The notes below the pieces were generated by a model. That model had not been told where the DNA came from. It ran no database searches and saw only the letters and a program-made list of their open reading frames with translations. Shown one piece after another: positions 8,937 to 63,981 of a stretch of 64,000 bases of DNA; the stretch's first letter is position 1, and each line of letters starts with the position of its first letter. The DNA lies in assembly GCA_963930775.1 (NCBI GenBank), contig OZ005700.1:6334609-6398608 (forward strand), written 5' to 3'. This DNA is from Cliona cf. orientalis (Eukaryota; Porifera; Demospongiae; Clionaida; Clionaidae). A program made the position numbers and the translations under genes.

Positions 8937-10101
8937 TTTTGGTGAAAATTCAGTAGACTAATGCCTACTGCTCAACAATTTCTGAATCAGTTGCAAGTAT
9001 ATTATTATTTTTAACTGCTGTCTACCAATGATTGTGGTAGCTATATTATGAAGCGTTTCTTCAGAGCAGTATGCAATCACAATAGAGCTCGAGATCAAGG
9101 AGTTACCTGCTAATAATAGTATGTACACCGGAACCACTGAAGAGTATATCAGGTATAATAGTCCATGAGATAGTGTGTATTAATAATTATTTTATTCAGA
9201 AAACAAAGTTATTTACGTAAATGCTGGCGTGCAGATTGACACATAATATAGAGCAGCAGTAGTAGGGAAAATCTTTGAAGATCTCTAGAATTTTGACTCA
9301 CTGTTGAGAAAGTCCAATAAAGATAAATTATAGGAGAGATTAGTAGCAGCTGAAAAGAGACGCTTGCTTCCCAATTGATATGTACACCTATAATAATAAT
9401 GTAAGATGATACGTAGCTGACAGAGTCAGGGCTTTGCTTCCTAAACCAGTTCATGTCTGATGATTTTTACATGAAAGAACTTACCTTTAAACTTGAAGTC
9501 TAGCTTTAGTGGTGCAAGTGTTAAAAGTAAAGTGCATCAAATTTGTGGGTGGGGCTGCACTGCCGCTGACTTGCAATCCAACTTGCTTTGAACTGTCGGG
9601 CCAACTCTATAATACATACGTGAACGAGAAACAAGGTGGAAGTTGATTATTGCTTCGACTTACGTTTACATATTATAATATATAGTGTAATAGTCTTACC
9701 TTTGGGTGTAGATAGACTAACCTAGTCCTTGTAAAAGAAACTGACAAGAAATTGAGGGAACGCCCCTAGCTCCCGCCCTCGGGTAGAACGAGCAGGAACG
9801 GGTCGTCAAGGCAAATTGTACAGCGTAGGCCCTAGCCAGCAATTGACGTGGATTCTTATCAGTTCAATAATCATGAGTTCCACCAAGAGTAGATCTGTTG
9901 TTTATTAATGCAAATGTTTTAGTAGCTACTTTCTAGTCACGTTTATGCAATTATTGTCCACAATACATGTCTATACATGCCAGTAGCTTGAACAACAAAA
10001 CAATCACATCAACTTCTAATCTATTAAAAAGTCCTCTACCACTACCACTTTAATACATTAGCACATGTCCAAAACTGAAATTTTCAGTACTGATCCGTTT
10101 T
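8937..10101. other. Intergenic region upstream of the ankyrin-Roc gene
   Basis: AT-rich sequence holding the presumed promoter of the ankyrin-Roc-COR gene and the 3' flank of the deaminase gene. A short GC-rich patch (about 9760-9810) is the only contrast. The 81-codon open frame at 9209-9454 has no supporting features. No gene seen. Confidence 0.5.
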
Positions 10102-10995
10102 TCATTTTCCCTTTTTCCCTTTCTTTGGTCCTGCTGTTTTCTTCTTATTTAGTGCATTAGAACATATCCGATGGTAATTCTTTAGCCCAGCCATCTTTTT
10201 GTATATGAAACTCACAACTTTCCTGGTTTCGTCGTACCTCCCATCATATAAAGCTGCACCAGTCATTTTACTAATAGCATCCTTGCATTCATCATTGGTG
10301 ATATACGTTTTAGCAAAATCACACCAGTCCCATGGAACTATCGTAAATCCATCATCCACAAGCATAGCAAGGCATTCTAAATTTACCTTTGTATTTCCAT
10401 TTCCTGTTTTTCCCTTTCCCCTATATGGGCGGGCAATGTGTATGGTCGGCTTTGGTTTATTATTGTATGCATTGTATAGCATCATGGCACAGTCTGGACA
10501 AGGAGCACTGGTCAAATAAAACTCGGTTGGAAGGCCACACTGTGCCGCCATATTGTCCTCTGCATGATTTCCACTCCCAGAAACATAGACGTGCCCTTTT
10601 GTATTCAATTTGGGGCACCTAGGAGCAAAGAGGTACGTCCTGGATGGAATATATTTGTCTTCAGGTTTGAACCATGCCTTTCCCTTGAATATGGTCATCA
10701 TGGAATCCAATTTTGAAAGAGTCAGATCTTGACTCCAGCCAGCTTTCTGTATACATTTTGTACTATCTGAGTACAAAATAATAAATATTTAATAATAACT
10801 CTATCATTAATAAGCTTACAGACCCATTGCATTAGCTATGAATTCTTGTCCAGCTGCAGCAGCCATTATGAATGATAGCTCTTCCATGGCATCAGTACCA
10901 TCCAATTCAACAGTGTGTCCTGCTACAGATGTACACACACTCACTGTACCTATGGCGACCAACATGACCAAAGAAAGCAGTCCCTTGCTCTGCAT
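10102..10995 (-). CDS. Secreted AID/APOBEC-like zinc deaminase
   Basis: Two exons, 10995-10824 and 10766-10102, joined across a 57-bp GT-AG intron to give 278 residues. The Met at 10995 begins a clear signal peptide: a Lys followed by a hydrophobic run (LLSLVMLVAIGTVSVC) and a small-residue cleavage region. An upstream in-frame Met at 11019 would bury this signal. The catalytic zinc motif is HAEDN (His125, Glu127) followed by APCPDC (Cys147, Cys150), the H-A-E / P-C-x2-C signature of cytidine deaminases of the AID/APOBEC-like superfamily. The C-terminus is strongly basic (KKGKKGK), suiting nucleic-acid binding. Secreted metazoan AID/APOBEC-like deaminases are known and have been linked to immunity; this protein fits that description, but the exact clade needs a profile search. 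A bacterial-type deaminase acquired by transfer is the alternative. Confidence 0.78.
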
Positions 10996-45352: not shown

Positions 45353-48300
45353 ATGGCAACAAGTAAGTTGTTCTCCATAATTATTCTCTATCCGAGCATT
45401 GAAATATCTGTAAATCTAGACTAAGACTAATACGGTGGCCGAGAGGGGCCGCGCATTCTACTTTAAACCTTCCGAAAATGCTTATTTCCTGCCGTGGTGG
45501 TTTCTAATTTGGAGTTATGCCCCGGAATTTATGATTAAATTATTTTATTCTCTATCTAGAAATTGACGAATTCAACTGCAATGAGCTGCCACCACTGAAT
45601 GTGCCGAATGCATTGCTGCAACTCAAGGATGTCAATAACATAGGCACTTTGGGAGTGCACCTTCATATTCCACCGTCCAAAATTCGCCAGATTGAACAAG
45701 AGTACAAGGATCTTGAGCGCCAAAAAATTGAGATGATTGATTTCTGGTTAAGCAACTCAAAGCCCAGTGATTGCTCATGGAAGAGGTTAGCTGAGGCACT
45801 GAACTGTGTTGGAGGCCACGGTCGTCTAGTGTCAAGACTAAAAAATAAGCTGGAAAATAATAGCTTACCTGAAGCCGCGGCAGAGATCCATCAGTCAGGT
45901 ATTTTAAGATACCGTTGAATGGATTGTATACTATCTGGAAAGTATTGGTTGATGTGCACACTTATAATGCAGGTGAATATATCACACGAGAATATGAGAG
46001 TGAAAGCAGTGAGAGCAATGAAGTTCCATCCGGTGGTTCTCAAAATATTAAATTTTGTATTCAGCCCGAGAGTGTATCAGGTAACAATCTGATATTAATA
46101 AATGGTAAATCTAATGAATTTATTGTGGCTTTGCTTACAGAAAAGTGTGATGACAGACCTACACCAAAGGAATTGAGAATGCATGTCCGCAGCCATGTGC
46201 AAGATAAATGGGAAGAATTGGCCGATGAACTGGGATTGGATGATGAAGAAAACACTTCAGAAGAGCTAGAGAAGATTAAGGAAAAGTGGAAATCTGATAG
46301 CCAAAAGGCTACATTTGAGGTGTTAAAGCTTTGGCTAAAGCACTACAAGACAACCGCAAGTTGGCAAACGCTGCTCAGCGCTCTACATAAGCTCAAATTG
46401 GAGTCTGCAGTTTCTTCAATTCAAGATTATCTATCAGGTAGTGATAAGTATTAATCAATTTACCTGAATCTATAATATTTTATTAATCATAGAGAAAAAT
46501 AAGACGACAAATCTTCAATTGTCAATGGAATCAGAATCCTACTCGCAGAGTTCGAGCACCAGCTACAGTCTGCTTCAACAGCAACAGTCATTGATGGAAG
46601 TAGCCACTGATGCTACAAATTCTTCGAATGTACCTGCATGTGACAAATTTATGATTCAAATGAAACAAGGTCAAAGGGTTCGTAGCTATCAGCATGAGCT
46701 AGCGAAGCCAGGAATTGATGGAGAAAACTACATCATTTTTGCTCCAACTAACAGCGGAAAGACTCTAATGGCAGCTCTGGTGATATCCGATCATCTGATA
46801 CGGAATCCTCGAGAGCAAAAAGGCCTGGGGCCAAAGGTAGTTATGGTAGTGAAAACAAGACTCCTGGCAGATCAACAAACAAAACGGCTCAAAGAGTACA
46901 TTCCAGGAGCTCGGGTGGAGTGTAGTAGGGGGAATGATTGTGAAGAAGATTCGCAACAAAGCAAGGAGCTGCCGTCCGTCAGTGATGCTTTGCATCGCTC
47001 TGATATTATAGTTTGCACAGCCGGTAAGCTAGTTGATGGATTAAAGAAAGGGAATCTGGGCATTGGAGACATTTCTCTCCTTGTCTTGGACGAGTGCCAC
47101 AATACTGACAAAGGTAGCAACTACGCTCAAGTCATGCATGCTTATCTCGAGCAAAAAATCGACCAAAAAATGCAGGGAAATCAACTACCACAGATTGTGG
47201 GCTTGACTGCTACACCAGGGGTAGGGAAAAATCCAGGCCTCAATCCACTAAAAGAGGTAGATAAGCTTATCAGTCTCTGCGCACAAGTGGATGCAACCAG
47301 TGGGATCAAATTTGTGAAGGAAAACGTTGAAGAATTAAACAGAGTGGTGCCAAAGTCAGAGTATCGTGAGGCAACCGTCAAACAGAGTGAACAAAGGGAG
47401 CAATTCATACGGCGTGTCGTAGCTGATATGGAAGTGTGTGAATCATTTCTCACTTTTGATAGCAAATTTCTGCGCTGGTCACAGGCATACGAGCAAGAGG
47501 TGAAGAAAATGAAAACTACACTTGAAGAAAGTGATAATCCTAGCGACAAAGACAAGATCAGTACCGTTCGAGTATTGGAGTGCCTATGTCAGACGCTCAT
47601 GGCATATATGGATCTTCCTTACACTCTTGCAACTACTCCCCTCAAAGTATATGATGACCTCGACATTCCAGACAAAGTGATATCAGACCACGATAAGGAA
47701 CTCAAAGAAATGCTTACTAAGCTGGAATCTGATCTTGCACAGTTACCGATCTGTGAAAATCCAATTTTGGACAAGGCAAAGGAGATATTGGAAAAGAGAT
47801 TTAAAAAAAAACCGAAGTCGGAAGGAATTATTTTCATTCGAACACGAGAACAAGCCAAGGTGATTAGCGAATGGATTTCAGAATCGAAATTTGCTCAAGC
47901 AATTGGAGTGAGGTCGCACATGCTTCTTGGGCATAAAAGGCCAGAAGAAACTGGTCCATCAATGTCTGATGCTGAGCAAAAGGCAGTCATATCAAATTTT
48001 CACTCAGGAAAATACAACCTTCTAGTTGCGACATCTGTTGCAGAAGAAGGACTGGATATCAAGCAATGTAACTTAGTCATGCGTCTGCATATTTCCAGTG
48101 CCAAATCGAAAGCTCAAATGCAAGGTCGAGCGAGAGCTGACGACAGCGAGATTATCACAATCATATCTGACGACCCCCAAAAGCACTACAAGGATATACT
48201 GAATGACGAGCAATTGGTTCTGACGGAACGAGTTGTTCAACATTTCCTACCATCATACTATGATCAATTTGCAGACCGCTTAGCCACCAAGCAGTTTGAA

Positions 48301-48756
48301 ATAGTAGAAAATGTGAAAAGACAGAGAGAAGCTCAAAAGCAGCGCATGAGCACCCATCCAGCTCGAAATGTTGTACTAAAGTGTAAAAGCTGCAAGCAGA
48401 AGGCGTGTTGTGGTTCTGATCTATACGTTATTGATAAAACGGATCACCACGTCGTTCCCGGAGATGAATTCTGCTATGAAATTCATGAACATAGAAACCC
48501 CGGAATGCCAGTATGTGAATTTGATGGCTCAACCATAAAGAAATTCAACAAAGTGCACTGTAGTAACTGTGGCAAAAGTTGGGGCGCTCTTGGATATTGG
48601 CCCAAATCAAAACATGAATTTCCCATCCTGAAATGCCGCGAGTTTAACTTCTTCATTAATGGGATAAAAGAAAATTTTAGCGGCAAGTGGACGAAGCGCC
48701 CATTTGATGTATCACCACTATCCCACTGGTTTGCCCAGAACAAATCTGAAGATTGA
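45353..48756 (+). CDS. RIG-I-like receptor with two N-terminal Death-like domains
   Basis: Exons 45353-45362, 45560-45898, 45973-46437 and 46493-48756 give 1,025 residues. Exon 2 (~5-116) encodes a Death-fold bundle (VNNIGTLGVHLHIPPSKIRQ ... WKRLAEALNCVGG). Exon 3 holds a linker and a second one (KWEELADELGLDDE ... VLKLWLKHYKTTASWQTL). Exon 4 is a superfamily 2 helicase of RIG-I/MDA5 type: Walker A PTNSGKT (~356), DECH (~471), TATPG (~510), a helical insert, the second RecA domain (TSVAEEGLDI; QMQGRARADD), and a C-terminal regulatory domain with zinc pairs CKSC (~902) and CSNC (~961). RLRs bind viral double-stranded or 5'-triphosphate RNA and signal via N-terminal CARDs in vertebrates. Here each bundle occupies its own exon. 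Death versus CARD versus DED subtype needs a profile search. Confidence 0.85.
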
Positions 48757-49230
48757 TTCACTAGCTTGCATGCATAGTAAGTGGGTGGAGTTTTAGTCCT
48801 CCATCAGTTACATACCAAGTTCAAGTCATTGTAGCTGTTTTTTTTTTCTTCCTTGTAAACTCTATAACTATTATTATTGGAAGTATCATTAAATTTAAAC
48901 TTTGAAGACTTGTATAGCATACACGATAATCGTGTGTCTTGAGAAGGGAATTTTCCCATGCAACAGTAGCTCAGAGAATAAGGAGAGGTTCTAATTTGTG
49001 GCCAAGGCTCATTAATTTAACAACGGAAGGTGACACTAACTAAGATACAGCACGAGTCAGATCATTGCAAATTTGGACATGATATGTGTACACTGCCAAA
49101 CAAGGGTAGCACATGAAACTGTGTGCATTCCATTAATGTTAGGCTATAAAATAAGGTTTCTAACTCCAGTTGGGTGCATAGAAGACGGAGTTAGTATTGA
49201 TCAAAGACTGATCTTAGAGCATATAGAACC
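48757..49230. other. Spacer between helicase and CARD gene A
   Basis: About 470 bp of AT-rich sequence holding the helicase 3' end and the promoter of gene A. No gene seen. Confidence 0.5.
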
Positions 49231-50764
49231 ATGAGTGAACAGAAGCAGCATCAAAGGCCATCAGTCAGGAGACCAAATCGTCAGTCGGTAAATACAACTG
49301 CCATTACAACAGCTACTATAGCTAGCTACATAATTATTATCTCTTTCACTGATAATAATCAATTGCTGTAGTGGATTGTTCCAGATAGGAGTTTAGAGGA
49401 GTCTGTTATAAAGTCCAACAACCACTATCTCAGGAGCTACCTCCCTGCTGATGACCTAGCTCCTCCACTGTACCAAGAGGGCCTACTCACCGATGAGGAG
49501 TATGAGCACTACAAACGACTGAAGGAGATGCATACAACAACTGCCAACAAGAGTGAACACTTGACCAGTTGCCTAATCAAGAGAAAAGAGGGCTATCTCA
49601 GGAAGTTCTGTGAAATATTAAATGGTATCACTGGTGCTGAGCACATTGCTGAATACTTGGATAAGCAGTACATGAAAATTACCAAAGAAGGAGGTATGAG
49701 TATTCACTGAGTCTAGCCTCATACCTATAATAAACAGAGAATAGTTGTGCATGGGGATGAGGTGATAGCATCCTTAGATGTCATCTTAAGGTTTTCCTAT
49801 GCAGTGACTTCACTGAGTCTCCCTGGATCCAAATGGATAAGCCAATCAGCTAACGATTTGCTTCAAAAGGTACGAAATTTGGTTCTTATTACCTACTAAG
49901 TTGATAATCACATGTATTCAACAGGAAGATGAACCTCGAAGCAGATGTTCAAAGTGCAAGAGTTTAAAGCATGAAAACAAGCGATTGAGGAGGATGCAAA
50001 GATGGCTCCAAGTACAACTCGAGGGGCTGAAGAAAGAGAACCAACAACTTCGACAGACAAATGCTTTCAGCCAGAATCTCCTTCAGAGCTCCAAGAAACA
50101 GCTGGAGCTGATGGAAGAAAAGGAGAGTCAGTTGAGGAATTTAGTTCCAATGCTACAGCAAGCAACTACGCTGATTGAATGCACAAGTGTAGCAAGAAAT
50201 GGACTGAGTGCTAACTTTCACCACATGGAACAGTTCTTCCACTCCTTTGGCAATCCTCCTGAGCCACAAGAACATACTGATCCTGAAGAATTAGTAGGAC
50301 AGAATGGTTATTCTGGGTATCAACATATTCGGCAGATAAGTATAGAAACCCAGGCTAGCTCACGGCTCAGCACAGAAGTGAGTGATGGTGAAATGGATAT
50401 GGAATTAGAGCAACTATCTTTGCTAAGTCAGCAAACCTCGAAGGAACTGCACGAACTAGTTGCTAGCATCACAGCCACATACCCTACACATGATTCCCAT
50501 CAACACTCCTGTAGCATTGGAGTTCCAGAATCTGATCATCGTGGAATGTCCAAAATTCAACGACACCCAGCTACAAATACTTCCACACAATGTCATCTGG
50601 GTAGGCCTGTTTCTCAATCAGATAATGGGTATGACCACCTGAGTGGCACAAGGAAGCATAAGGAGTCAAAGGGTAAAAGTTATGGCGAAGAAAATGCTTA
50701 TTCAAGGTCCGGGCTGGGACGTTCTTTACACATGCGTAAAAAATTTAATACTGAGTGGTCATAG
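49231..50764 (+). CDS. CARD-coiled-coil protein, paralogue A
   Basis: Exons 49231-49287, 49372-49693, 49805-49869 and 49925-50764 encode 427 residues. Exon 2 is a CARD-like bundle: LEESVIKSNNHYLRSYLPAD, LLTDEEYEHYKRL, KSEHLTSCLIKRKEGYLRKF, then ILNGITGAEHIAEYL. The hydrophobic pattern resembles CARDs of the CARD9/CARMA and BCL10 kind. Exon 4 begins CSKCKSLKHENKRL, a C-x2-C-K-x-L motif leading straight into a coiled coil of ~70 residues, then a Ser/Gln-rich disordered tail. CARD plus coiled coil is the layout of filament-forming adaptors. It is the first of four tandem paralogues and follows the RIG-I-like gene by 474 bp on the same strand. Exon 3 is a short variable linker. Confidence 0.75.
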
Positions 50765-51340
50765 ACTATAATATTATTATACACACACACCTTGCATGTA
50801 GTCCTCTGTTAAGTCCCTCACATTAGTATTATGACATTGTATAGATATAATATTATTATGAGATGGATCATTGAAAATATCATAGTTATGAAAAATCAAT
50901 AATAATTGCACATTGATGTCAATTTTTGGCCTCATTAACTTTGCAGTATTCACTTTTCAAGAGAGTTACTCAATATTAATAGCTCCTCAATGCAGGATCT
51001 GTCTATTCTATGAATGACATCTTTTGCACCAAGCAAGAATTGTTTCATCTGTATTATTAGAATCCAATCGATCAGATAATATATATAAGGAGCAGTGCAA
51101 TTGGGCTAACTTAATCGGTGACACAAAGAGGAATGTGACTGCCATATGAATGCAGAAGCATGACCCTTGTTAACTAAGTTTACTTTGGGTCATTAATGAA
51201 TAAATGCACTGGTAATATTATCTCCACCAATAAGGTAGAAGGGATTACACCTCAATCATTACACACTGTCACAAGACATCATGAGATATCACATTCCTTT
51301 ATAAATAAAACTGTGGTTCCATGCTAAAGTTTAAGTTTAA
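50765..51340. other. Spacer, no gene seen
   Basis: AT-rich sequence 3' of gene A running to the palindromic element. No conserved reading frame. Confidence 0.5.
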
Positions 51341-52741
51341 ACGGTGGCCCAGAAGGTCACTCGAGATTGAACATTGGCCTTTCGATTGTGCTAAGAGATT
51401 GCACATTGGCGATTCGAACCTCGAATCTCCAATCTCCAATCTCTTAGGACACCGTGCTAAGCGATTGCACATTGGCGATTCGAACTTCGAATCTCCAATC
51501 TCCAATCTCTTAGGACACCGTGCTAAGAGATTGCACATTGGCGATTCGAACCTCGAATCTCCAATCTCCAATCTCTTAGGACACCGTGCTAAGAGATTGC
51601 ACATTGGAGATTCGAACCTCGAATTTCCAATCTCTTATGACACCGTGCTAAGAGATTGCACATTGGCGATTCGAGCTAGGTAGGCGCGGCTGGGGATTTC
51701 CCTCATCACACGGTCTTTAATCGCGCATGCGCGCACGTGATTCTCTGGTTGTATTCCATCCAGAGCAGGAAAAGGAGTTTAATATACACGAGACTAGCAC
51801 GTAGCCTGTGCTATTCCACCATAAGTTAGCAGCCATAATTCTGGCATAAGGAAACGGTCCACGCACATTCGATAATGGCCACACCCCTTGCCACAAGTGG
51901 CGCCATGGCGGATGGCATGCACGCGCCAGCCTGCGTATAATAGTAAGCTAATTGCCAATGTGCAATCTCTTAGCACGGTGTCCTAAGAGATTAGAGGTTC
52001 AAGGTTCGAATCGCCAACGTGCAATCTCTTAGCACAGTGTCCTAAGAGATTGGAGATTCGAGGTTCGCAATATGCTAGCCTCATCTACGTAGTCCCCAGG
52101 CTCTCTCGGAGGCCTGGGAACGAGGCTTGCAATGTGTATTCTCTTAGAAAAGGTGTCCTAAGAGATTGGAGATTCGAGGTTCGAATCGCCAATGTGCAAT
52201 CTCTTAGCATGGTGTCCTAAGAGATTGGAGATTTGAGGTTCGAATCGCCAATGTGCAATCTCTTAGCACCGTGTCCTAAGAGATTGGAGATTTGAGGTTC
52301 GAATCGCCAATGTGCAATCTCTTAGCATGATGTCCTAAGAGATTGGAGATTGGAGATTCGAGGTTCGAATCGCCAATGTGCAATCTCTTAGCACGTGTCC
52401 TAAGAGATTGGAGATTCGAGATTCGAATGTGCTAGCCTCATCTACGACGTCCCCAGGCTCTCTTGGAGGCCTGGGGACGAGGCTATCAATGTGTATTTTC
52501 TTTAAAAAGGTGTCACTTTGGAAATTTGAGATTCGAATCGCCAATATGCAGTCTTTCAGCACGGTGTCCTAAGAGATTGGAGATTGGAGATTCGAGATTC
52601 GAATCGCCAATGTGCAATCTCTTAGCACGGTGTCCTAAGAGATTGGAGATTGGAGATTCGAGGTTCGAATCGCCAATGTGCAATCTCTTAGCACAATCGA
52701 AAGGCCAATGTTCAATCTCGAGTGACCTTCTGGGCCACCGT
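51341..52741. mobile_element. 1.4-kb palindromic TIR element built of inverted hairpin repeats
   Basis: Ends ACGGTGGCCCAGAAGG (51341) and its inverse (to 52741) continue as a long terminal inverted repeat, with an exact 8-bp duplication AAGTTTAA outside (51333-51340, 52742-52749). Each arm contains tandem ~58-bp units, about five on the left in one orientation and more than seven on the right in the other. Each unit is itself a hairpin: CTAAGAGATTG at one end and CAATCTCTTAG at the other, with GGTTCGAATCGCC between. The centre (about 51683-51950) is non-repetitive. In the right arm a second segment (tagcctcatctacg ... cgaggct) occurs twice, at about 52077 and 52433. No transposase. The 8-bp target size is hAT- or P-like. 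Confidence 0.85.
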
Positions 52742-52799
52742 AAGTTTAAGCACTAAAGTGTATCGAGCTAAACTTAGTCTAGTGATAGAGGAATTTGGC

Positions 52800-55700
52800 A
52801 TGGCAACACTCAAGAAGAAGAGAACTAGAAGTATCAAACGAGACCCAAATCAGGTTTTGATAACCAAACCTGTCACTGCTTTGCAGACAGACGGGCCAAT
52901 TTCTGCAATCTCAAGCTCAGCTGGAAGAGTAAACAGTGTTAATCAAAAAAGATACTTTATGGTAAGTAATAATAATTAATAGTTATGGGGTGTTATGAAA
53001 CTTTATGATGTCTATAATAATAATGGACAGCTCATTAATGTATTAAGCTTGATAATCCATTATTCAGGAAATGCCTCCAGATAAAGAAATGGAAGTTAAA
53101 GTCTTGCAAGCCTGCTTTGTGCACCTATCTAACAACCTCCCCCCAGATGATGTTTCTATGGAGATGAATAGTAGAGGTCTACTCACAGTCAAGGAGCATG
53201 AGGAATACATGAGCATGAAACGATCACACTCATCTGATTCCACCAAGAGTGAGTACCTCCTGCTGTGCCTAGGGAGGAGGAAGGCAGGATTCTTGACACA
53301 ATTTTGTGAAATACTGAGAGAAATTGAACAGGCAAGCTACTTAGCTGATGATATCATTGAAGCTTACAAAAGAGCAGCTCTTCAAAAAGGCAAGTATTAA
53401 CAAAATTATGTTATTAACATCCAAGATGTGCATATAATATAAGAAGTTGTAGGTGTAAATTTGGTGCTATTTTGTAGCTGCTATCATTAAATTTTATTTC
53501 ACTTGTGGCATGGCTAATTGAATCTCCTTATCTGACCTCAATGATATCCTGAATACTTTCTTTAGGTTGTACACCCACTGCTTGTAATCGTACATCCAAA
53601 ATAAGCCTCTCCATCTCTGATCCTGATCTTCGTTCCACAAAGGTACGTGTACCATGTACTGGTTTGCACTCGCACGCAATAGCTCAGTTAGAGACAAAGA
53701 ACTGATTTTAATACCCAGGTACAGAGATATTTATATGCACATAGAATTCCAAATACGCGAACACAAAGTAATATCTAAGTACACACAAAACCACGTAATA
53801 TAGGATGATTGCACAAATCAATAATACATAATACACATAAAATACATACCACTACATCTCCCTCTTTAAGTCCAGTTCTGTTCAAGTCTCACAGGTGGTT
53901 TTGACACTCTGCCACTTCTAGTCTTTCGAGTTCCATTCTCAGTAGGGGCAGTGTCAGGTTCTCCATTGTTGTTTAGCACCTGTTCTTGGCTTTCTCTTTC
54001 CGTGTTCTGTTCCTCAGTACTATCAGATTCTTGAGGATCTGGCAAGACAATGAGATCACGTCTATTTCTACGAATAGTTCCATTTTCGACTCGTACAGTG
54101 TAAGATCTTGGATTGGACTGTTCAATAATTGTTCCGTTCGATTTGTTCTCAGGAATCCACACTGTGTCTCCTGGTTGTAGTGGCTGTAATTCTCTCGCTT
54201 TGTGGCGACTGTCAAAGTTTCTCTTATTTCTTTTCTTAAACTTTCTCTCCTTTTCTCTAACCACCTTCTCCTTCGGCACGGAGGGTTTCAACTGCTCGGG
54301 AGCAATAGGTAGAGTTGTTCGCAGTCTTCTTCCCATTAGCAGTTGTGATGGACTATGCCCGTTCTCAAGAGGGGTTGAGCGATAGGCTAACATTGCCAGG
54401 TACGGATCAGCGTTCTTTTCCAAGAGTAGTTTTGTTGTTTTTACTGCCCTCTCTGCTTCACCGTTGGCTTGAGGGTACTTGGGGCTACTAGTCACATGAC
54501 TAAATTCGTACTCTTTAGAGAAGTCTTGAAAAGCTGCCGAAGAGTATTGGGGGCCATTGTCCGAGACTACTACTTCCGGTATCCCGTGACGTGCAAAGAT
54601 GGATTTGAGATGAGATATGACACTCGCTGCGGTGGTTGACGTGAGTTTGGCAACTTCGATGAATCTCGAATAATAATCGACTACTAAAAGATATTCAGTC
54701 TTCTTCCACTCAAACAAATCCGTTCCAACTCGTTGCCACGGTCTTTGCGGAAAAGGAGATGGTATCAATGGTTCCGGATGCTGAATTTGCATTTTGCAAC
54801 AAATAGCACATTTCGACACTTTCTCGTCAATATCCTTTCTGATCCCAGGCCACCATACCGAATCTTTCGCTCTCTGTCGGCACTTCGTCATTCCTTGATG
54901 TCCGCTATGGATTCTGTCTAAAATCTCTGCTCTCATGGAGGTTGGGATCACCATTCGGCTCCCTCTCATAAGTAGTCCTTCCGCTACCGTTAACTCTGAT
55001 CGGACCTGGTAGTATGGCTTTAAGGGACCTTTCCACTCTGCTTTTCCTTCCAGGCAGTAGCTTTTTAGCTGTTTGCACACCTGATCTTGATCTTGCTGTT
55101 CTCGGATGGCTTTCAAACGCTCTTCCGATGCCGGTAAGTTGTTGACGATTGCGTGCACGTACTCCTTCGTTTCGTTACTCAAATTGCTTTCGTCCTGTTC
55201 GGTGACTGGTGCTCGGGAAAGCGTGTCAGCAGTGTTCAATTCTTTTCCCGGCACATGAGCGATCGTGAAGCTGAATCTCATCAAACGAAGTCTGAATCGT
55301 TGCACTCGCACTGGAACTGAATCGAGGGGCTTAGATGAGAGGAGAGGTACTAACGGCTTGTGATCGGTCTCTATCTTGAATTGAGTTCCCAATAGGTAGT
55401 CCTGGAATCGCTCGCAAGCCCATGTCGCTGCTAGCGCCTCTTTCTCGATTTGCGCATAGCGCTGTTCCGTCTCCGTAAGAGCTCTTGACACATAGGCTAT
55501 CGGCCGGAGGCTTCCGTCAGGTTGAGTCTGCCTGAGAACTGCTCCTAGACCATATGATGAAGCATCTGCAGAGAGAATCGTTTCGTTTTCGGCATTGTAG
55601 AGGGCCAAAACCTCGCTAGAGCTCAATGTTGTCTTGAGTCGCTCAAACGCTTGCTGCTGGTCGTGTCCCCAACTCCATTGGTTCTTCTTACTCAGTAGGT

Positions 55701-58027
55701 CTCTGAGGGGTTTCGTTTGATCAGCGAGGTGTGGCGAAAACTTGCTCTGCTGGTTTACCATTCCAAGAAACCGCCTTAGCTCACTCACTGTCATTGGAGT
55801 CTTCATCTGCTGAATGGCTCTGACCTTTTCCGGATCTGGCCTGACTCCCGATTCGTCTACTAGCTGACCCAGAAACTTGACGCTCTTTTTGTTAATTTCA
55901 CATTTCTCTCGCCCAAGGGTTAGTCCAGCTTTACTGAGACGAGTGAGGACGATCTTCAATCGACTGTCGTGTTCGGGTTGAGTTCCTGTTTCACTTTCGG
56001 CAGGAGGGGAATCGGCACACGTCGTGGGGTTGTGAGGGCAAACGGTGTGGCTCCTTCACGTAATTTGATCCTGTAGCTGTCCTTTAGCTTTCCCAGACCT
56101 CTGAACAGTTTCGGAAACTGCTCCACGACGTTGTCTCCTTGGACTGGCTCGATTAGTACTGCTACATTGAGAGCTTGTATTGCAGGTCTTCCTAACAGCG
56201 CTCGGCTTAGGTTTCGGACAACATAAATCTCCTGCTGGCTCTCCACTCCGTTCTTAGTTAGGCATGCTTTGAATCGACCACACACCTCCAAAGGTTCCCC
56301 TGTCGGTCCGTTTAGAGGAATCGAAGCTGCTTCCAATTTGCTGTCTTCCTCTGGGTGATACACACTCTCCGGGATCACAGTAACATCGGCCCCTGTGTCG
56401 ACTTTAAACTCTAGGGCTCTGTTGTTGAGTTGCACCACAGCCATCCATGGCTTGTTAGTGCTCACTGTGTCAGCATTGACTGTGCCCAGAAATTCCTCAC
56501 TGTCACTGGTATCACAATCCTGTTTGACCTCCTTGACACCCACTTTAGTTTTGCAACAGTGTTTGAAGTGTCCCTTCTTGTGGCATCTGTGGCATGTTGC
56601 TTGATTAGCTGGACACTGCTGTCTGCCATGGGGAGGTGACCTTCCACACCTGCTGCAGCTGTGAGGTTTTGGTGCTGACCCTGTGGTTTTCCTCTGTTTG
56701 TGTGTTTTCACCGCTTGGATGGCTATCTTATCATCTCGATCTCCCCTGACAACGCCTTGCTGCTTCCGTACGGATTCGCTCTGCCGCACCTTTGTAATGC
56801 AGCTGTCTAGGGTAAGGCCCGCTTCCAGCTGAAGCTTCTCTGATAGTTTGCCATCTTTGATGCCTACCACAATTCGATCTCTCACCAGCTCGTCGTGCAG
56901 TGTGCCGTATCCACAGTTCTCTGCGAGGCGATATAGATCGGCGATAAACTCGTCCACACTTTCGTTCTCTCCCTGTGAGCGGCTATTGAATCTTGCTCGC
57001 TCGTAGATCGTGTTGCGTCTCTTCACGAAGTAGCTCTCGAATTTCCCTTTTACTGTCGCGTACTCCTTTAGCTCGTCCTCCTTTAAGTTGAACGAGGTGA
57101 GGATGTCTTCTGCTTTGTCACCGAGCGAGTACACGAGTGTGCTTACTTGAACTTCCTCCGATTTCGTCGCAAGATCGGAGGCCTGCCTAAACCTCTCGAA
57201 GCGCTTGATCCAGCGTGGCCACTCCTCGGGTTTGGCGAAATCGAATTTTTCGACAGCGGGAATTCGGTAGGATGCTGCCATTAGCTCGGTGAGTTCAATC
57301 CCGGCTCTGACACCATGTACTGGTTTGCACTCGCACGCAATAGCTCAGTTAGAGACAAAGAACTGATTTTAATACCCAGGTACAGAGATATTTATATGCA
57401 CATAGAATTCCAAATACGCGAACACAAAGTAATATCTAAGTACACACAAAACCACGTAATATAGGATGATTGCACAAATCAATAATACATAATACACATA
57501 AAATACATACCACTACATACCATAGACACAACGTTATTATTGTAGTTATAAGTATGATTATGTAGGATACATATCATGTTCAAGAATGTACAAGATGCAA
57601 AGTTTTAGAACACCAAATAAAGAAGCTTGAGAGACAGAGAAGACATCTTAAAGATCAACAATTGCTTAACCAGACAACACTCCTCCCCTTCAAGCCTCTC
57701 GCTGAAGTGGCTCAGGAACAGTTGCAGAGGGGACTGGCAGAAATCAATAAACTAATGACCCTGCTTCCTCCAATGCAAGAGGCCATCACTCAAGCGACAG
57801 GAGGGATTTCTGGAGCTCAGGTCTCCCTCAAGAAAATGAATGACGTATTAGGACAAGACATGACAATGCAGAAGAAAGCTTTGTGGGCACTGCCTCAAGT
57901 TGCTTCTCTAAGAGAGAGTGTTCTTAGTGAGGTAAGTGTCTTCACTTCTGAAGGAGAGTTTGAAAGAAGTACAGAGAGCCAGTCGAAGAACACAACATGG
58001 TACAATGACGATAAACCAGCAACATGA
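52800..58027 (+). CDS. CARD-coiled-coil protein, paralogue B (intron carries LTR element)
   Basis: Exons 52800-52961, 53068-53389, 53566-53642 and 57566-58027 join in phase to 340 residues. Exon 1 is a basic leader (ATLKKKRTRSIKRD). Exon 2 is the CARD: MEVKVLQACFVHLSNNLPPD, LLTVKEHEEYMSM, KSEYLLLCLGRRKAGFLTQF. Exon 4 begins ECTRCKVLEHQIKKL, the conserved C-x2-C-K-x-L motif, followed by a short coil and helical segment ending without the long tail of the other paralogues. The donor after exon 2 is GC (AAAAAG then GCAAGT). The 3.9-kb third intron holds a full-length minus-strand LTR retrotransposon, 12 bp downstream of the donor, which may impair splicing. The protein is the shortest of the four. 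Confidence 0.72.
53655..53856 (-). repeat. LTR, downstream copy of the Ty3/Gypsy element
   Basis: 202 bp, same sequence by eye as 57316-57517. It is the 3' LTR in the element's own orientation. The purine tract AAAGAGGGAGA (53867-53857, minus) sits directly against it. Confidence 0.92.
53866..55959 (-). CDS. Pol remnant: RT end, RNase H and integrase
   Basis: Open frame of about 697 codons, reading in from upstream rather than starting at a true Met. It opens with the end of the reverse transcriptase (thumb/connection, LTRLSKAGLTLGREKCE). The RNase H domain follows (TILSADASSYGLGAVL; ETDHKPLVPL). Integrase comes next: an HHCC zinc-binding region (HSGHQGMTKCRQRAK ... CAIC) and a DDE core (GTDLFEW, SDNGPQYSS, then the Glu in ANGEAERAV), with a chromatin-binding-like basic tail. 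The palm with the Y-x-D-D motif is absent. No internal stops otherwise. The frame is offset from the Gag-protease frame at the deletion junction near 55956-55975. Confidence 0.88.
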   Translation of the reverse strand: MKIVLTRLSKAGLTLGREKCEINKKSVKFLGQLVDESGVRPDPEKVRAIQQMKTPMTVSELRRFLGMVNQQSKFSPHLADQTKPLRDLLSKKNQWSWGHDQQQAFERLKTTLSSSEVLALYNAENETILSADASSYGLGAVLRQTQPDGSLRPIAYVSRALTETEQRYAQIEKEALAATWACERFQDYLLGTQFKIETDHKPLVPLLSSKPLDSVPVRVQRFRLRLMRFSFTIAHVPGKELNTADTLSRAPVTEQDESNLSNETKEYVHAIVNNLPASEERLKAIREQQDQDQVCKQLKSYCLEGKAEWKGPLKPYYQVRSELTVAEGLLMRGSRMVIPTSMRAEILDRIHSGHQGMTKCRQRAKDSVWWPGIRKDIDEKVSKCAICCKMQIQHPEPLIPSPFPQRPWQRVGTDLFEWKKTEYLLVVDYYSRFIEVAKLTSTTAASVISHLKSIFARHGIPEVVVSDNGPQYSSAAFQDFSKEYEFSHVTSSPKYPQANGEAERAVKTTKLLLEKNADPYLAMLAYRSTPLENGHSPSQLLMGRRLRTTLPIAPEQLKPSVPKEKVVREKERKFKKRNKRNFDSRHKARELQPLQPGDTVWIPENKSNGTIIEQSNPRSYTVRVENGTIRRNRRDLIVLPDPQESDSTEEQNTERESQEQVLNNNGEPDTAPTENGTRKTRSGRVSKPPVRLEQNWT
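55956..57281 (-). CDS. Gag-protease polyprotein of the Ty3/Gypsy element
   Basis: 441 residues from ATG at 57281. The first ~200 residues are a helical retrotransposon Gag capsid domain (WPRWIKRFERFRQASDL ... FNSRSQGENESVDEFIADL). Two zinc knuckles follow (CSRCGRSPPHGRQQC and CHRCHKKGHFKHCC), then an aspartic protease with VDTGADVTVI. The frame runs a few residues into the start of reverse transcriptase (RRVPIPLLPKVKQEL) and then hits a stop created by the internal deletion. Confidence 0.88.
   Translation of the reverse strand: MAASYRIPAVEKFDFAKPEEWPRWIKRFERFRQASDLATKSEEVQVSTLVYSLGDKAEDILTSFNLKEDELKEYATVKGKFESYFVKRRNTIYERARFNSRSQGENESVDEFIADLYRLAENCGYGTLHDELVRDRIVVGIKDGKLSEKLQLEAGLTLDSCITKVRQSESVRKQQGVVRGDRDDKIAIQAVKTHKQRKTTGSAPKPHSCSRCGRSPPHGRQQCPANQATCHRCHKKGHFKHCCKTKVGVKEVKQDCDTSDSEEFLGTVNADTVSTNKPWMAVVQLNNRALEFKVDTGADVTVIPESVYHPEEDSKLEAASIPLNGPTGEPLEVCGRFKACLTKNGVESQQEIYVVRNLSRALLGRPAIQALNVAVLIEPVQGDNVVEQFPKLFRGLGKLKDSYRIKLREGATPFALTTPRRVPIPLLPKVKQELNPNTTVD
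57298..57315 (-). promoter_or_regulatory. Primer-binding site of the LTR element
   Basis: TGGTGTCAGAGCCGGGAT on the minus strand directly abuts the 5' LTR. It begins TGG and so could pair with the CCA-terminated 3' end of a host tRNA; the tRNA was not identified. Confidence 0.7.
57316..57517 (-). repeat. LTR, upstream copy of the Ty3/Gypsy element
   Basis: 202 bp, TG...CA, the 5' LTR in the element's orientation, apparently identical to 53655-53856. Followed outside by the TACCA target duplication. Confidence 0.92.
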
Positions 58028-58490
58028 GTGGCACAATAATAAGTGCATTCAGAGCACAGTATAGATCATCTGTCATAATAGCATTAGGAGAATAATTGCT
58101 TACTAGCACTTTCAAATTACATCATCCTGCATTTTAATTTTGATGAAGTATCAGCATAATAATAATTATAGTATAACGGTATTGAAATACCATGGCATGA
58201 AGTATCAGCAAAATTGTGTTACACTTCATTAATCAGAGGTACAGGGTATCATGTTACATTGAGCTAAGATATGGGAGTGCACCAGGGTAAGCCCCTTTAC
58301 TGTTACAGTTAACGCACACCAGGAAATGTACTCATATCAGGTATCTCAGTTTACATTCCACCCATGAATCTGCATATACACACCAATTAGCAACTTGGGT
58401 GGCATCCACGAATGATACTATAAATCTTCATTGTGAATAGCTAGGCCACAGCAGTGTGTAGCCAGAAATCTCTTAATCTTGTGTGTGAGA
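58028..58490. other. Spacer between CARD genes B and C
   Basis: AT-rich, about 460 bp, no gene seen. A repeated phrase atgaagtatcagca (58143, 58198) is the only internal structure noticed. Confidence 0.5.
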
Positions 58491-60246
58491 ATGTCTGCTG
58501 GTGCCTCTGTGAAGCCTCAACCACCTCCAAAACCTCATTCGCTTATCAAGTCAGTACAGCGAAGAAATGGAGCAATCAAGCAAACAAAGGTAATCAATTA
58601 CAAAACTATCGGGTATTAAATTTTATCACGACTATAGTATATATCAATTATTATGTGAAACTGTAAGGTCTAGAGATTAAGATGTCATGTATGCACCATG
58701 ATGGTTACTCCTAGGCCTTATTCTGTCACAGACTGTACATGACCAGACCATCGAGGACTTGGTTTTGGATGAACTCTACTACGATATAGTTCGTAATTTA
58801 CCAGCAGATGACATAGCCATCCTAATGGATGAACGTAAGCTCCTAACGTTGGGACAGAGGGACCACTACAGGATGATGAAAGCAAACCATTTGCCTGATG
58901 TGGAGAAGAGTGAGTACCTTGTTGATTGCCTCAGAAAAGGGGAGCCTGGATTTCTACAGAAGCTGTGCACCATTCTGAAAACGCTGCCACCATCAAGCTA
59001 CATTGCAGATAAAATTCAAGGTATTATATACATAGTATCAGAGAGATTGACATAAAATTAATGGCTGAATTGTTTGATCACATAGATAAGGTAAAAGAGA
59101 TGTCATCAAAGCCACTGATACTTAAACCACAGCGCCCTGAAAGTGTAAGCAAGGTAAAATCATTGACAAGCATTTGGATCTTGTAATATTATTTAAAATA
59201 CATGACTTGAATAGATTAAATCAGATGTACAATGGAAGATTGAATACAGAAAGCTGGAAATGAAAACAAGAATGCAACTCCAAACTAAAGATAGAGAAAT
59301 CAAGAGACTAAGAAAAGTTGTTCGACACCTACAAAAAGATAATAGCGACCATCTTGAACAACTCTTTAGTGAGATGAGATCCCAGGTGGAAAACGTTACA
59401 AAGTGGATTGACCTCAAATCTAAGGCTGCTCTATCACCTCACTCCAGCTCATTGCTGAGGATAGCCCTCAGCCGAGATGAAAAGTATGGAGATCTCTACA
59501 GCTCACATGAATCACAACTGAGTATCAGTGATACGAGTTCAAATCAGTCCACTCTGGAGCGCCATCATCGAAGGAGGGAATCATATGAGAGTTACCTACC
59601 ATCGAGCACTTGCCCACCTTCCAGCTGTGAGAGTAGCCAAGTTGCCACACCAACAACGCCTGTTAAAGGGAGAAACTACGTGGGAGGTGATCCAGATTTT
59701 CATAGCGTGCTAGCTAAGAGTTTTATTCCTCCCCTGTCTGTGGAGAGTGACATGACATTGTCAAACATCACCAAACTTTTAAAAGAGTCAGAAGCTATGC
59801 TCAATCAGCCAGATTCCCTTGATGACAGTATAATTGAGCCATCAGTAGCAGGGACCGATGCACCTGGTGAAAGTGTCAGCCATAATCTGGCAACAAATGA
59901 CTTGAACGACTGGAGGTCAACATTAGCAACCACATCTCACCGTGCACGCACACGCAGCATGAGTGCTCCTTTTGTTAGTACGGAGAGTTCATTGTCCACT
60001 GCCATGGCAACTGACACCAATGATGATGCTAATAATGTTGAATCAGCAGCAGATGCTGATGATGTTCACACACCATCAACTGTGAAGTCCAACACTACCA
60101 GTCCCAAGTCATCCATTCAAGATCCCCCCACTCAACCAAACTTCAAGTATGGAAATGAAGTAACGGCCCAACAAGAGCAAGGACCAATGGCTGATCTCAT
60201 TGCTGTATTCAGAAAGATTCAAGGAAGGGACTTTCTAGCTCAGTAA
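58491..60246 (+). CDS. CARD-coiled-coil protein, paralogue C
   Basis: Exons 58491-58589, 58732-59020, 59086-59153 and 59215-60246 encode 495 residues. Exon 1 is Pro/Lys-rich. Exon 2 is the CARD (IEDLVLDELYYDIVRNLPAD; LLTLGQRDHYRMM; KSEYLVDCLRKGEPGFLQKL); it is 289 bp rather than 322, with shortened flanks. Exon 4 starts with a charged coiled coil (KIEYRKLEMKTRMQLQTKD ... REIKRLRKVVRHLQKD). Unlike A, B and D it lacks the C-x2-C motif. The long tail is Ser/Thr/Asp-rich and contains RARTRSMSAP, similar to the TRSASAR segment of D and a candidate basophilic-kinase or 14-3-3 site. Confidence 0.75.
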
Positions 60247-60996
60247 CTAGTCTATAATATAATATTACATGCCTGATGATACATAATATTACGTGCCTGA
60301 TGATTCCATCTTTGCTTATACAATATTATTACTGAAAACATTAGAGTTGTACCTAAATTTTAATTTTAATTTGCATCCATATCTTGTGAATTCAAATACT
60401 AGTATCATGAGGTACATGCCAAACTAGTGCATGTCACTGCTACATTCCTCCAATTAAGCTAAATCGTATAAAATCATGCATGGGAAATGACTTGGTCATC
60501 TCCACAACAGTTATCACACTAGTACTGTATTCTGATGGTGAGCTTCAGCGTACTTGATAGTGCCATGATATGAATTATGTCCTTCCAAGTGATTACTGCA
60601 TGAATCTGCAATAATTAATGATCCATACAACAGAATTTGCGTGTAAGGAATACAATTTCAAACTCAATTGTCCAGCTCCGAATCAATTAATTAGACTCAA
60701 CCTATGGCCTTACATGACTCTTAATAATTTAAATTAGTGTCTAGGCGGTAGTGTAGTACTATGTAACTTTCTACTATTACATTGTGTACACAATCAACTA
60801 TTATTCATAATAGATAATGCAAAGAATTCCAACAATGTGCTGACTGATACAATATTATATTCTGCACTATAATAACATAGATAAGAGAAGTCAAAGGTCA
60901 TCTATGGTTTAGTCAGAAGGTGAACAAGTACTAGTCCAATTGAGATTGAAATAGGCCTACCTATATAGAGAGCCACTGGCTATACTGCATTAAACA
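60247..60996. other. Spacer between CARD genes C and D
   Basis: AT-rich, 750 bp; no gene, no obvious element. It must contain the promoter of gene D. Confidence 0.5.
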
Positions 60997-63981
60997 ATGA
61001 ATTTTCTACGTTCAAGGCGTGCATCTGCTGATGGAGGTAGAAGAAGGCCAATTCATGTCGATGAAGTTGTGCGTACCAGTTCATCTGAAATAGATAGTCC
61101 CCTTCAGCCAAAGAAGAGGGAAGGCAACAAGGATATGACCAAGGTATAGCAAGTAATAAAAGGTACAATACCGTAGCTACATACTGGATTTCATACTGCA
61201 AGAGAAATAATATGGCTGTGTTCAATGGCATTAATATTGCCATGATAGTCTCTATAGATAATTCGGCATTTTTTTTATCAAATTGATCATGAATACAGTA
61301 CTAGGCTGCTAAGGCGTAATGATAACTGCATGGCTATGTACTCCTGGATTGCAGGATATGCCTCCTGATAAGCAACTAGAAGAAAGAATCCTAATTGAAT
61401 GTTCTGAATACTTGGCTGAAAACCTACCAGCTGATGATGTAGCTCCCAAGATGCTCTCTTCAAATTTGCTCACTTGCAAGGAACATGATGAGTACAGGGC
61501 GTTGAAGAGGAGCTTTAGATCGACGATAGATTTGAGCTATTATTTGTTGGAGTGCCTGCGAAAGAGACACGCTGGCTTTCTGGGGACTTTCTGTAACATA
61601 TTATGGGAGATACAGCCTGCTAATTATCTTGGAGACCACATTCAGGGAGCGTATAATGCTGCAGTTTCACAAGGAGGTGAGTAGCATGTACGTGATCTAG
61701 AGAACAGAGAGGGGGGAGGTGGAGGAGACAATCAGAAAGAGAGAGAAATGGGAGAGAAGCTAAGGGGACACACAGATTAATAACATGTCCTTTGGGATCA
61801 GAACACAACATGCATATCTCTCTCCCAAATTTCTAACTTGATAAACAAGAAACAATAACCAGCCTCTATGATTATCTCAAAACAAGTGATTCAAGCGTCT
61901 ACATTACAGAAGTGAAGTTTTCATAACCTGGGACTCTTTCTGGACCTCCTGTATTGCCCCTTTATAATACTCCATATATATCAAATGTCAACAAGTTACT
62001 ACCAGCTTATTGTTTATTGTAGTGATTGAATGGCTAATCACACTTAGTCTAGCACATATTATAAACAATCATAATGCATGTACTTCCACTGAAGCACTGG
62101 ACTTGGGCTACCAAGGTACTATGCATAGATCATGCATGCAGTGTAACGACGCAAATGCGATCCCGACCCGTTCGTGATACACCGGGACGTACGCCGCCGC
62201 GATCGCTGGACGATATGGATGGGAGGGGCTGGGAGGTCAGAGGATGGGTTGCGAATGGTTAGCAGGGTTAGTGTGGGAGGGGCTGGGAGGTCTGGGGATG
62301 GATTGCGAATGATTAGCAGGGTTAGTTTCTAGGGTTTGCGTATACGTGGACTGGAGGGGCTGGGAGGTCTGGGGCTGGGTTGTGAATGGTTAGCAGGGTT
62401 AATGTCGGAGGGGCTGGGTTGTGTAGGGTTTGTCTACAAAATAGTTGAAATAATTGCTGCCAGCAGCGACAACGGTGGTGGCCGAGTGGTTGGGCTCTTA
62501 TGTATGGGACGGAATAGAGCGGGTTCAAATCTTGCCGTACACTTTGATTTTTTTTTCCCTGTCGAATTTTTCTAAGTGTTGATAGATCGCATTTGCGTCG
62601 TAACATGCAGTGCATGCACTGTATTATTTTAGATGGTCCCTGGGTTTATCCCGCATGCATGACAGAATGAGCTGTAGAGCACCTTATAAATTCGTTTGCA
62701 TGCCCAAAGCTGAAAACTGAGCTAATATCTTGGTCAAATACATGTACATGATACAGGTTTCAATCCAGGTTCCAGGGATCGACTCTCCAAAATGAGTTGC
62801 TCAGACACAGATATCTCTATGAAGGTCAGCTATAGAGGCTGAAGTAGGGGGATATGCAAGTGGGAGATGGAGGATATCTTAGCCATTTGGAGTGAATTGC
62901 AAATGGCAGTCAATTGTATGTGCTGGTTAGCCTTATTCATGGCAGCACATGTTTTATATTATTCTCTGTAGTTGTTTGCTACAAGATTTAGTCTGTAGTG
63001 ATGAGCAATGTTAAAATTAATCCCTAATCCTTCAATATTATCATTCTCCACTTGTAGGCTGCCCCACAAGGGGGTGTTAGTCAGCCATGTGTAGCATGCA
63101 AAGTGCTAAGGAAACAGAATCGACAACTGAAAGAACAATTGATAGACCTTGATAAGGAATATTATCTTTTGTACAATGCCAAAATAAAGATCGAAACACA
63201 ACTTGAAATGCTTCAAGACCAGCTACAGAGAGAAGAAAGGGAAAGGCAAAATCTGTCCAGTACGTTTATTGTGCCAAAACTCCAGGAGGTGATCACACTG
63301 ATTGAAAGCCGTAATAAAGCTATTGAACCTTCTGGAGTACAACAGACACTTAAAAGGATGAGCGATTTAATGCATGAGCAAGTCAGGCCTGATGTCCCAA
63401 GGAGGAAATTCCATAGCTCATTTGGGTACAGTATGCTGAGTTTATTTAGTGACACAAGTTCAGTTGCTGGAGAAGAGGAAACAGCTCGACAAAATGCTAC
63501 TGCAAGTGACACCAACTCCATTCCTGCTATTACCCATCATATGAACGATTCAGATAAATCTGTACCCATCGCTAATACACAGAAGGACAAACCCATAATG
63601 ACTCCAGCTGTGGACAGACACACTGAAATACCTAATCCTCAAGCTGATAGAGAACGTACCCCTTTCCAGTCACAAGAAGACATTATTACAAAAGAACAAC
63701 CTCACAAGCCCATTCGTTGTGATTCTACCCCAGAAAGTGATTGGAACAAAACTCGTTCAGCTTCTGCGAGGAAAACACGTCACCATTCTGTATCAGGGGC
63801 TACTGAGAATTCTACCAAACCTATACATGAAGATTTAAGTCACAGCTTAATAAGAGGGAGAAAACTAACTAACCCAACAGTAAAAGGATCTCAGGCATAC
63901 TTACAAGGTGATGAACTTCAATCCAGGCTTGCACAGAGAAGAAAAAGAATTGAAGCAAGCTGTGAAGCTGTAGAAAAATGA
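60997..63981 (+). CDS. CARD-coiled-coil protein, paralogue D
   Basis: Exons 60997-61143, 61355-61676, 62757-62824 and 63058-63981 join in phase to 486 residues. Exon 1 is Arg-rich (NFLRSRRASADGGRRR). Exon 2 (322 bp, as in A and B) is the CARD: LEERILIECSEYLAENLPAD, LLTCKEHDEYRALKR, YYLLECLRKRHAGFLGTF. Exon 4 begins with CVACKVLRKQNRQL, the C-x2-C-K-x-L motif, then ~70 residues of strong coiled coil (LEMLQDQLQREERERQNL). The tail is disordered, with DWNKTRSASARKTRHHS resembling paralogue C. Intron 2 (61677-62756) contains a 460-bp TIR element. The frame ends 19 bp before the window edge. Confidence 0.75.
62144..62603. mobile_element. 460-bp TIR element, 9-bp target duplication (Mutator-like)
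   Basis: 19-bp inverted repeats TAACGACGCAAATGCGATC (62144-62162) and its inverse (62585-62603, one mismatch) are flanked by an exact 9-bp duplication CATGCAGTG (62135-62143, 62604-62612). The left half holds about four tandem ~50-bp units containing GGAGGGGCTGGGAGGTC and GAATGGTTAGCAGGGTTA. The right half holds a tRNA-like sequence. It lies in an intron of CARD gene D. Confidence 0.85.
62470..62560 (+). repeat. tRNA-like sequence captured in the TIR element
   Basis: Box A TGGCCGAGTGG (62478-62488) and box B GGTTCAAATCT (62521-62531) are spaced as in a tRNA of the Ser/Leu style, and an oligo-T run (62548-62556) follows, as at pol III terminators. The acceptor stem is not convincing. A tRNA-derived SINE fragment inside a DNA transposon is the simplest reading. 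Confidence 0.5.

Follow-up and report, generated by a model that had tools for sequence, protein, structure and literature searches.

A Death-domain RIG-I-like receptor gene beside a tandem family of CARD genes in the sponge Cliona cf. orientalis

Described systems and the layout of the locus

RIG-I-like receptors (RLR) carrying Death domains have already been reported in sponges, namely the type A1 receptor of Amphimedon queenslandica (accessible part of PMC8998645). The RLR described here is like that receptor in having an N-terminal Death region, a DExD/H helicase and a RIG-I C-RD and so fits membership of the A1 type, but it has two Death exons, unlike type A1 as set out there, and ten RLR C-RDs are found in the Cliona genome against the two RLR genes that the accessible text gives for Amphimedon (PMC8998645). 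For the four genes beside it, here called A to D, comparison can be made with CARD9, CARD10, CARD11 and CARD14 and with the CARD-CC proteins of Nematostella, in which an N-terminal CARD is likewise followed by a helical or coiled-coil segment and then by a tail that is long and possibly inhibitory (accessible part of PMC5978004). A-D differ from CARD9/10/11/14 in their short coil, in the CxxC motif that A, B and D carry before the coil, in that no MAGUK part is seen and in forming a tandem family, with eight copies on C12 and four on C9. As far as the accessible text of the same survey goes, Bcl10 and type 1 paracaspases are restricted to cnidarians and bilaterians, and CARD-CC proteins are found only together with Bcl10 (PMC5978004).

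The literature searches made found no paper on a CARD-CC family of sponges, and if such a sponge family of CARD, helical segment and tail does nucleate CARD filaments, this design would either have an older root or have been invented independently. MAVS is a further CARD adaptor, although A-D have only the general idea of a CARD adaptor in common with it and, unlike MAVS, A, C and D have hydrophilic tails without an evident membrane anchor, as judged by eye. Of the death-fold proteins of sponges, the FADD of Amphimedon is described as supersaturable, a state that is thought to drive all-or-none assembly (accessible part of PMC13012725). The accessible text on Dysidea avara gives 39 CARD and 128 DEATH genes (PMC12909245), numbers that make such neighbours common stock, and the Cliona genome has at least 150 Death matches (best 150 of 1292 candidates) and 49 CARD matches.

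The window, by which is meant the whole stretch of 64,000 nucleotides analysed (G000:C12:6334609-6398608), is part of a 217-Mb genome, and all gene models are predictions from the DNA alone (Table 1). The RLR and genes A, B, C and D follow each other head-to-tail on the plus strand from 45353 to 63981, with 474 bp between the stop of the RLR and the start of A. The predicted introns of A-D are GT-AG, the sole exception being the GC donor after the CARD exon of B, and the intron phases are 0-1-0 in the models of A, C and D, with B also fitting this pattern if the exon 3 listed, one pick among several candidates, is used. Among open reading frames of at least 70 aa no other host-like gene was seen between the RLR and D, an LTR retroelement and an inverted-repeat block being present. 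The sequence-only reading of this locus, as an RLR and four paralogues in one orientation with no unrelated host gene between, four exons and phases 0-1-0 in each paralogue and a CARD exon of exactly the same size in A, B and D, is thus borne out by the exon models, for B with the chosen exon 3. Its cluster of four paralogues is incomplete, as the array extends past the end of the window.

Table 1. Positions of the predicted exons and of the repeats in the window
Feature	Position	Strand	Evidence
RLR exon 1, start codon	45353..45362	+	
RLR exon 2, Death domain 1	45560..45898	+	Pfam Death 7.2e-6
RLR exon 3, Death domain 2	45973..46437	+	Pfam Death 2.1e-9
RLR exon 4, DECH helicase and RIG-I C-RD	46493..48756	+	Pfam
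Gene A exon 1	49231..49287	+	
Gene A exon 2, CARD, 322 bp	49372..49693	+	CARD_2 1.1e-4, CARD 7.2e-4, under cut-off
Gene A exon 3	49805..49869	+	
Gene A exon 4: CxxC, helical region, tail	49925..50764	+	16 relatives, E up to 1
Inverted-repeat block between A and B, MITE-like	51341..52741	.	repeated short units
Gene B exon 1	52800..52961	+	
Gene B exon 2, CARD, 322 bp, GC donor	53068..53389	+	aligns with family; no single-sequence Pfam match
Gene B exon 3, picked among candidates	53566..53642	+	
LTR retroelement in B intron 3	53651..57518	-	gag, protease, RNase H, integrase matches
Gene B exon 4	57566..58027	+	
Gene C exon 1	58491..58589	+	
Gene C exon 2, CARD, 289 bp	58732..59020	+	profile comparison; no single-sequence CARD match
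Gene C exon 3	59086..59153	+	
Gene C exon 4	59215..60246	+	
Gene D exon 1	60997..61143	+	
Gene D exon 2, CARD, 322 bp	61355..61676	+	CARD 1.8e-3, under cut-off
Gene D exon 3	62757..62824	+	
Gene D exon 4: CxxC, coiled coil, conserved Ser-rich tail	63058..63981	+	heptad p 0.006 (35-residue window)

The RIG-I-like receptor

The RLR gene runs from an ATG at 45353 to a stop at 48756 and is predicted to encode 1025 aa in four exons. All five of its Pfam matches are above cut-off, the two Death domains being followed in exon 4 by DEAD (3.4e-23), Helicase_C (1.7e-13) and RIG-I_C-RD (5.4e-15), which gives the order Death-Death-DECH helicase-C-RD with both helicase domains present and DECH visible in the translation, and the description of the gene as a Death-domain RLR is upheld. 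The cysteines C631, C634, C690 and C693 of the C-RD are invariant in the 11 chosen sequences of alignment A4 and are presumably the four that bind zinc. PF18119, which we take to be the helicase insertion domain (Hel2i), is not among the matches of the window RLR at E up to 1 and is listed for some of its relatives. At the same threshold no CARD was matched in the RLR exons, tandem CARDs of the RIG-I/MDA5 type being absent. Among the best 120 of 253 helicase relatives the closest named ones are those of Amphimedon queenslandica (P0097, 36%, 394 bits) and Dysidea avara (P0107, 32%, 346 bits), with vertebrate RIG-I reaching at most 231 bits. In viral contigs the alignments of RLR, A and D have a single weak helicase match (44%, query residues 59-99) and no other, and a search of genome contigs gave archaeal helicase loci (best 80 of 555 relatives).

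The first Death domain (45595-45897) has at least 130 matching places in the genome at E 0.01 among the best 150 of 364 candidates, of which the five best non-self matches are all on C10 (8.0-8.46 Mb, 44-47%), above Death 1 of the two RLRs at C11 354 and 357 kb (35-37%). This pattern suggests domain grafting, and the Death proteins of C10, as relatives of Death 1, are possibly its partners too. From the intact helicase and C-RD it may be supposed that the ligand of the receptor is RNA, that its binding would uncover the tandem Death domains or bring them together, and that these in turn would recruit a Death-domain adaptor encoded elsewhere.

Part of the receptor gene has a near copy on another chromosome. 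The block 46687..48773 (plus strand) is 91.6% identical over 2091 bp to C11:355970-358057, with a dS of 0.245 and a dN/dS of 0.19 over 687 codons for the helicase-RD block, whereas the Death exons of the window RLR and of this C11 receptor (C11_357) are only 35-41% identical; by eye, the helicase exon of C11_357 begins like that of P0055 and the one of the window RLR like those of P0020-P0023. The low identity of the Death exons and the P0055-like exon start speak against the window RLR being a simple recent copy of C11_357, and a converted block fits them better. It is thus probable that ectopic gene conversion of the 2.1-kb helicase-RD block has occurred with the window copy as the donor type, the block of C11_357 seeming to have been overwritten by it.

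The CARD family

Whether the second exons of A-D encode CARDs depends on the method used. Taken one sequence at a time, the Pfam matches of A and D are under cut-off and B and C have no CARD match at all, whilst the CARD_2 match of a C-type copy (C12:6431491) reaches 1.2e-3 and the match of a B-type copy on C9 reaches 0.013, both again under cut-off. When a profile of the four sequences was compared with nine CARD exons of the same genome the result was 97.7% (hhalign, E 1.7e-12, 85 columns), slightly biased since one of the nine (L041) was first noticed through a weak match to A and D, and the control comparison with an alignment of seven RLR Death exons gave 0.3%. Other searches are less informative, as the genome-wide CARD_2 profile search was empty but missed even gene A and is thus insensitive, and against the PDB (E up to 10) the A-D profile matched not a single CARD chain, the two matches that it did give being chance-level and non-CARD, which makes that search one of low power with regard to CARD9 and CARD11. 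Because the profile comparison so clearly exceeds its Death control, the assignment of exons 2 as CARD, or at least death-fold, stands. The label of CARD exons that the sequence-only reading had used is therefore clear by profile comparison but not by single-sequence Pfam; the profile searches on the five proteins that it had named as a check give Death and RIG-I C-RD above cut-off in the receptor and a death fold, by comparison of profiles, in exons 2.

The same reading had called the genes CARD-coiled-coil, a name that suits D and is weak for the other three. Heptad periodicity in the first 110 residues of exon 4 was compared with 2000 shuffles in windows of 35 and 28 residues, giving raw p values over eight tests of 0.006 and 0.080 for D, 0.098 and 0.034 for B, 0.062 and 0.195 for A and 0.171 and 0.276 for C. 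A coiled coil after the CARD is supported in D, and in A, B and D the helical or coiled-coil region is preceded by CxxC. The tails encoded by exon 4 are polar (0.69-0.75 polar residues), and the motif FSDTSS is kept in 14 of the 15 rows of alignment A3, with P0013 having VSDTSS. By eye, P0150, from a public contig of 4874 bp, has an A-type exon 4 with a D-type tail end, a hybrid that may result from recombination between members of the array or from misassembly.

Genome-wide there are 11 strong CARD exons (queries CARD D and CARD A, E up to 1), seven of them on C12, comprising A-D and those at 6431491, 6436480 and 6440037, and four on C9 between 6.879 and 6.894 Mb; the remaining matches are weak, with E of 0.006 and above. 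Exon 4 of D matches seven places at E 0.01, itself counted, one of which is copy E (L047:2151-3185, C12 6400759-6401793), where exon 4 starts 2.2 kb past the stop of D and contains an in-frame stop. E is the twelfth copy of the family and the eighth on C12, with no CARD exon found by the CARD A and D queries at E up to 1, and kinase-like ORFs, named by eye, lie downstream of it. In D' the reading frame of exon 4 is interrupted. The expansion by local duplication of adaptor-like genes that had been proposed for the locus holds in its duplication part, and the family appears to have grown by tandem duplication, with its second cluster on another chromosome.

For CARD exons dN/dS was 0.57, 0.06, 0.35, 0.19 and 0.06 in five of eight pairs, one of these five being near saturation (dS 2.8) and the other three pairs saturated, and for exon 4 it was 0.27-0.41 in four of five pairs, the fifth being saturated. 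The CARDs thus look to be under purifying selection and the whole looks like a birth-and-death family maintained by selection. The whole D protein has 19 relatives at E up to 1, and A-like P0145 and D-like P0012 come from public contigs of equal size (339517), as do the D- and E-like pairs P0013 and P0016 (284237) and P0004 and P0018 (5058), so that part of the CARD-CC array appears to be conserved.

A-D may therefore be viewed as a putative lineage-specific CARD family, in which the CARD is N-terminal and the segment after it, helical or coiled-coil and in A, B and D preceded by CxxC, leads to a long tail, rich in polar residues, that seems to evolve faster. If they act as nucleators of the CARD9 type, the coil would oligomerise and the tail restrain the protein, and release of the tail would let the CARDs seed, as their output, a filament of a downstream CARD protein.

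Linkage of the two families and other features of the window

A search with PF11648 finds the ten C-RDs of the genome at five loci, with five on C11 at 6.94-7.01 Mb, two on C11 at 0.354-0.358 Mb and one each on C1, C13 and C12. The C12 C-RD is the only one of the ten beside CARD-CC exons, none being found near the other nine at E up to 1, and there is no RLR C-RD at the C9 cluster of CARD-CC genes. Death exons upstream were searched for at six of the other RLRs (those at C11 6936, 6988 and 7011 kb were left out): Pfam Death is above cut-off for the receptors at C11 354 and 357 kb and under it on C1 (9.2e-4), and at E 0.01 there is no Pfam Death match upstream of C11 6959, C11 6979 and C13, the upstream ORFs of C11 6959 and 6979 kb being Death-like by eye and that of 6959 also in alignment A7. 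The C13 receptor (G000:C13:664449-664796) has a very long branch, and its upstream ORF of 306 aa has no Pfam match at E 0.01.

The linkage was also examined in relatives in public data, using the best 120 of 253 RLR relatives, 108 of them with a contig size, a shared contig being deduced from equal sizes with the sequences unread; equal short sizes can be chance, equal long ones hardly. The tree comprises 47 rows, the ten receptors of the Cliona genome (three partial) and 37 chosen from the best 120, and places the window RLR with P0020-P0023, P0025-P0029 and C11_357 (support 100/100). Four cases were found among those listed in which an orthologue of the window RLR has the contig size of another RLR: P0023 with P0034 and P0050 (all 788866), P0025 with P0031 (9618), P0027 with P0035 (507267) and P0029 with P0044 (37761). 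P0034, P0031 and P0035 belong to the C11_354 clade (100/99), P0050 forms with P0055 a third clade (100/100) and P0044 is in an open fork. For the near orthologues P0021 and P0022 there is no second gene by which to place them, and P0020, which is 99% identical, is on a 1.72-Mb contig. As window-type receptors share contig sizes with other RLR types, the ancestral position of the window RLR was most likely among other RLRs. The 35 CARD-CC hits (19 to D, 16 to A) have no contig size equal to any of the 108 listed RLR rows, a null result weakened by the use of the best 120 of 253 relatives and by 90% clusters that may hide members on other contigs. As these contigs are unread, this leans against, without deciding, the local sensor and adaptor module that the sequence-only reading had proposed.

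According to that proposal the RLR would signal through the neighbouring CARD proteins, which would have expanded as its adaptors, and the tight linkage on one strand and the presence of death-fold domains in both families are what would be expected from it. The chance of adjacency for these two families is about 0.2% by hand estimate (79 kb x 5 RLR loci / 217 Mb), which applies to these two families alone, and many pairs of families could have caught notice. Against the proposal are the nine C-RDs without CARD-CC genes, the C9 cluster without a receptor and the orthologues that share contig sizes with RLRs and, among those listed, with no CARD-CC hit, and it also goes against the usual homotypic rule, to which pairing of Death with CARD does not conform. 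The receptor has Death domains in the place of the CARDs that CARD-CARD coupling would call for. The module is not supported and is quite unlikely; in a genome so rich in death folds, that two genes are neighbours says little about whether they are partners. It is more fitting, and probable, that two separate innate-immune families meet here and that a rearrangement in this lineage brought the RLR next to the CARD array, the relatives of the RLR seeming to lie among other RLRs. A receptor and CARD nucleators that each have their own type of contact would best fit the evidence.

The other alternatives concern the CARD genes. A-D could be true members of the CARD9/10/11/14 CARD-CC group acting through Bcl10 and a MALT1-like paracaspase, as the succession of a CARD, a helical region and a regulatory-looking tail would allow, and the nine comparison CARD exons do match the PDB chains of CARD11 and CARD9, albeit after those of CARD8, RAIDD, Caspase-9 and APAF1. 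This is unlikely in view of the distribution of Bcl10 given above, and a MALT1_Ig search of the genome was empty, although its controls were silent too, just as the A-D profile misses the chains of CARD9 and CARD11 along with every other CARD. That A-D are not nucleators but decoys or regulators, capping CARD filaments that belong to other pathways, might explain the turnover seen in copy E and D' and the A/D hybrid P0150, but the apparent purifying selection on the CARDs and the tail motifs kept between relatives are more than a decoy would need, and this role is very improbable. It may also be imagined that the RLR left an ancestral RLR array and joined the CARD-CC array as a young co-regulated unit, in which the CARDs relay the signal of the receptor through a Death-CARD adaptor and the CARD-CC family is an independent sponge invention of a CARD9-like nucleator, a combination that would have to be called a long shot. 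Two families brought together by rearrangement thus remain the preferred explanation.

The LTR retroelement begins a few bases after the donor of the chosen exon 3 of B and has a domain order that we take to be Ty3/gypsy-like; its two 207-nt repeats are identical, and the insertion therefore looks young. The arms of the inverted-repeat block, 51341-51564 and 52518-52741, are 224 nt long and 96% identical. Elsewhere in the window, on the minus strand, 3480-8957 holds a single ORF of 1825 aa in which ankyrin repeats are numerous and a Roc-like GTPase region is just under cut-off, and 10102-10788 an ORF for an AID/APOBEC-like deaminase (Pfam AID 1.1e-5, just under cut-off).
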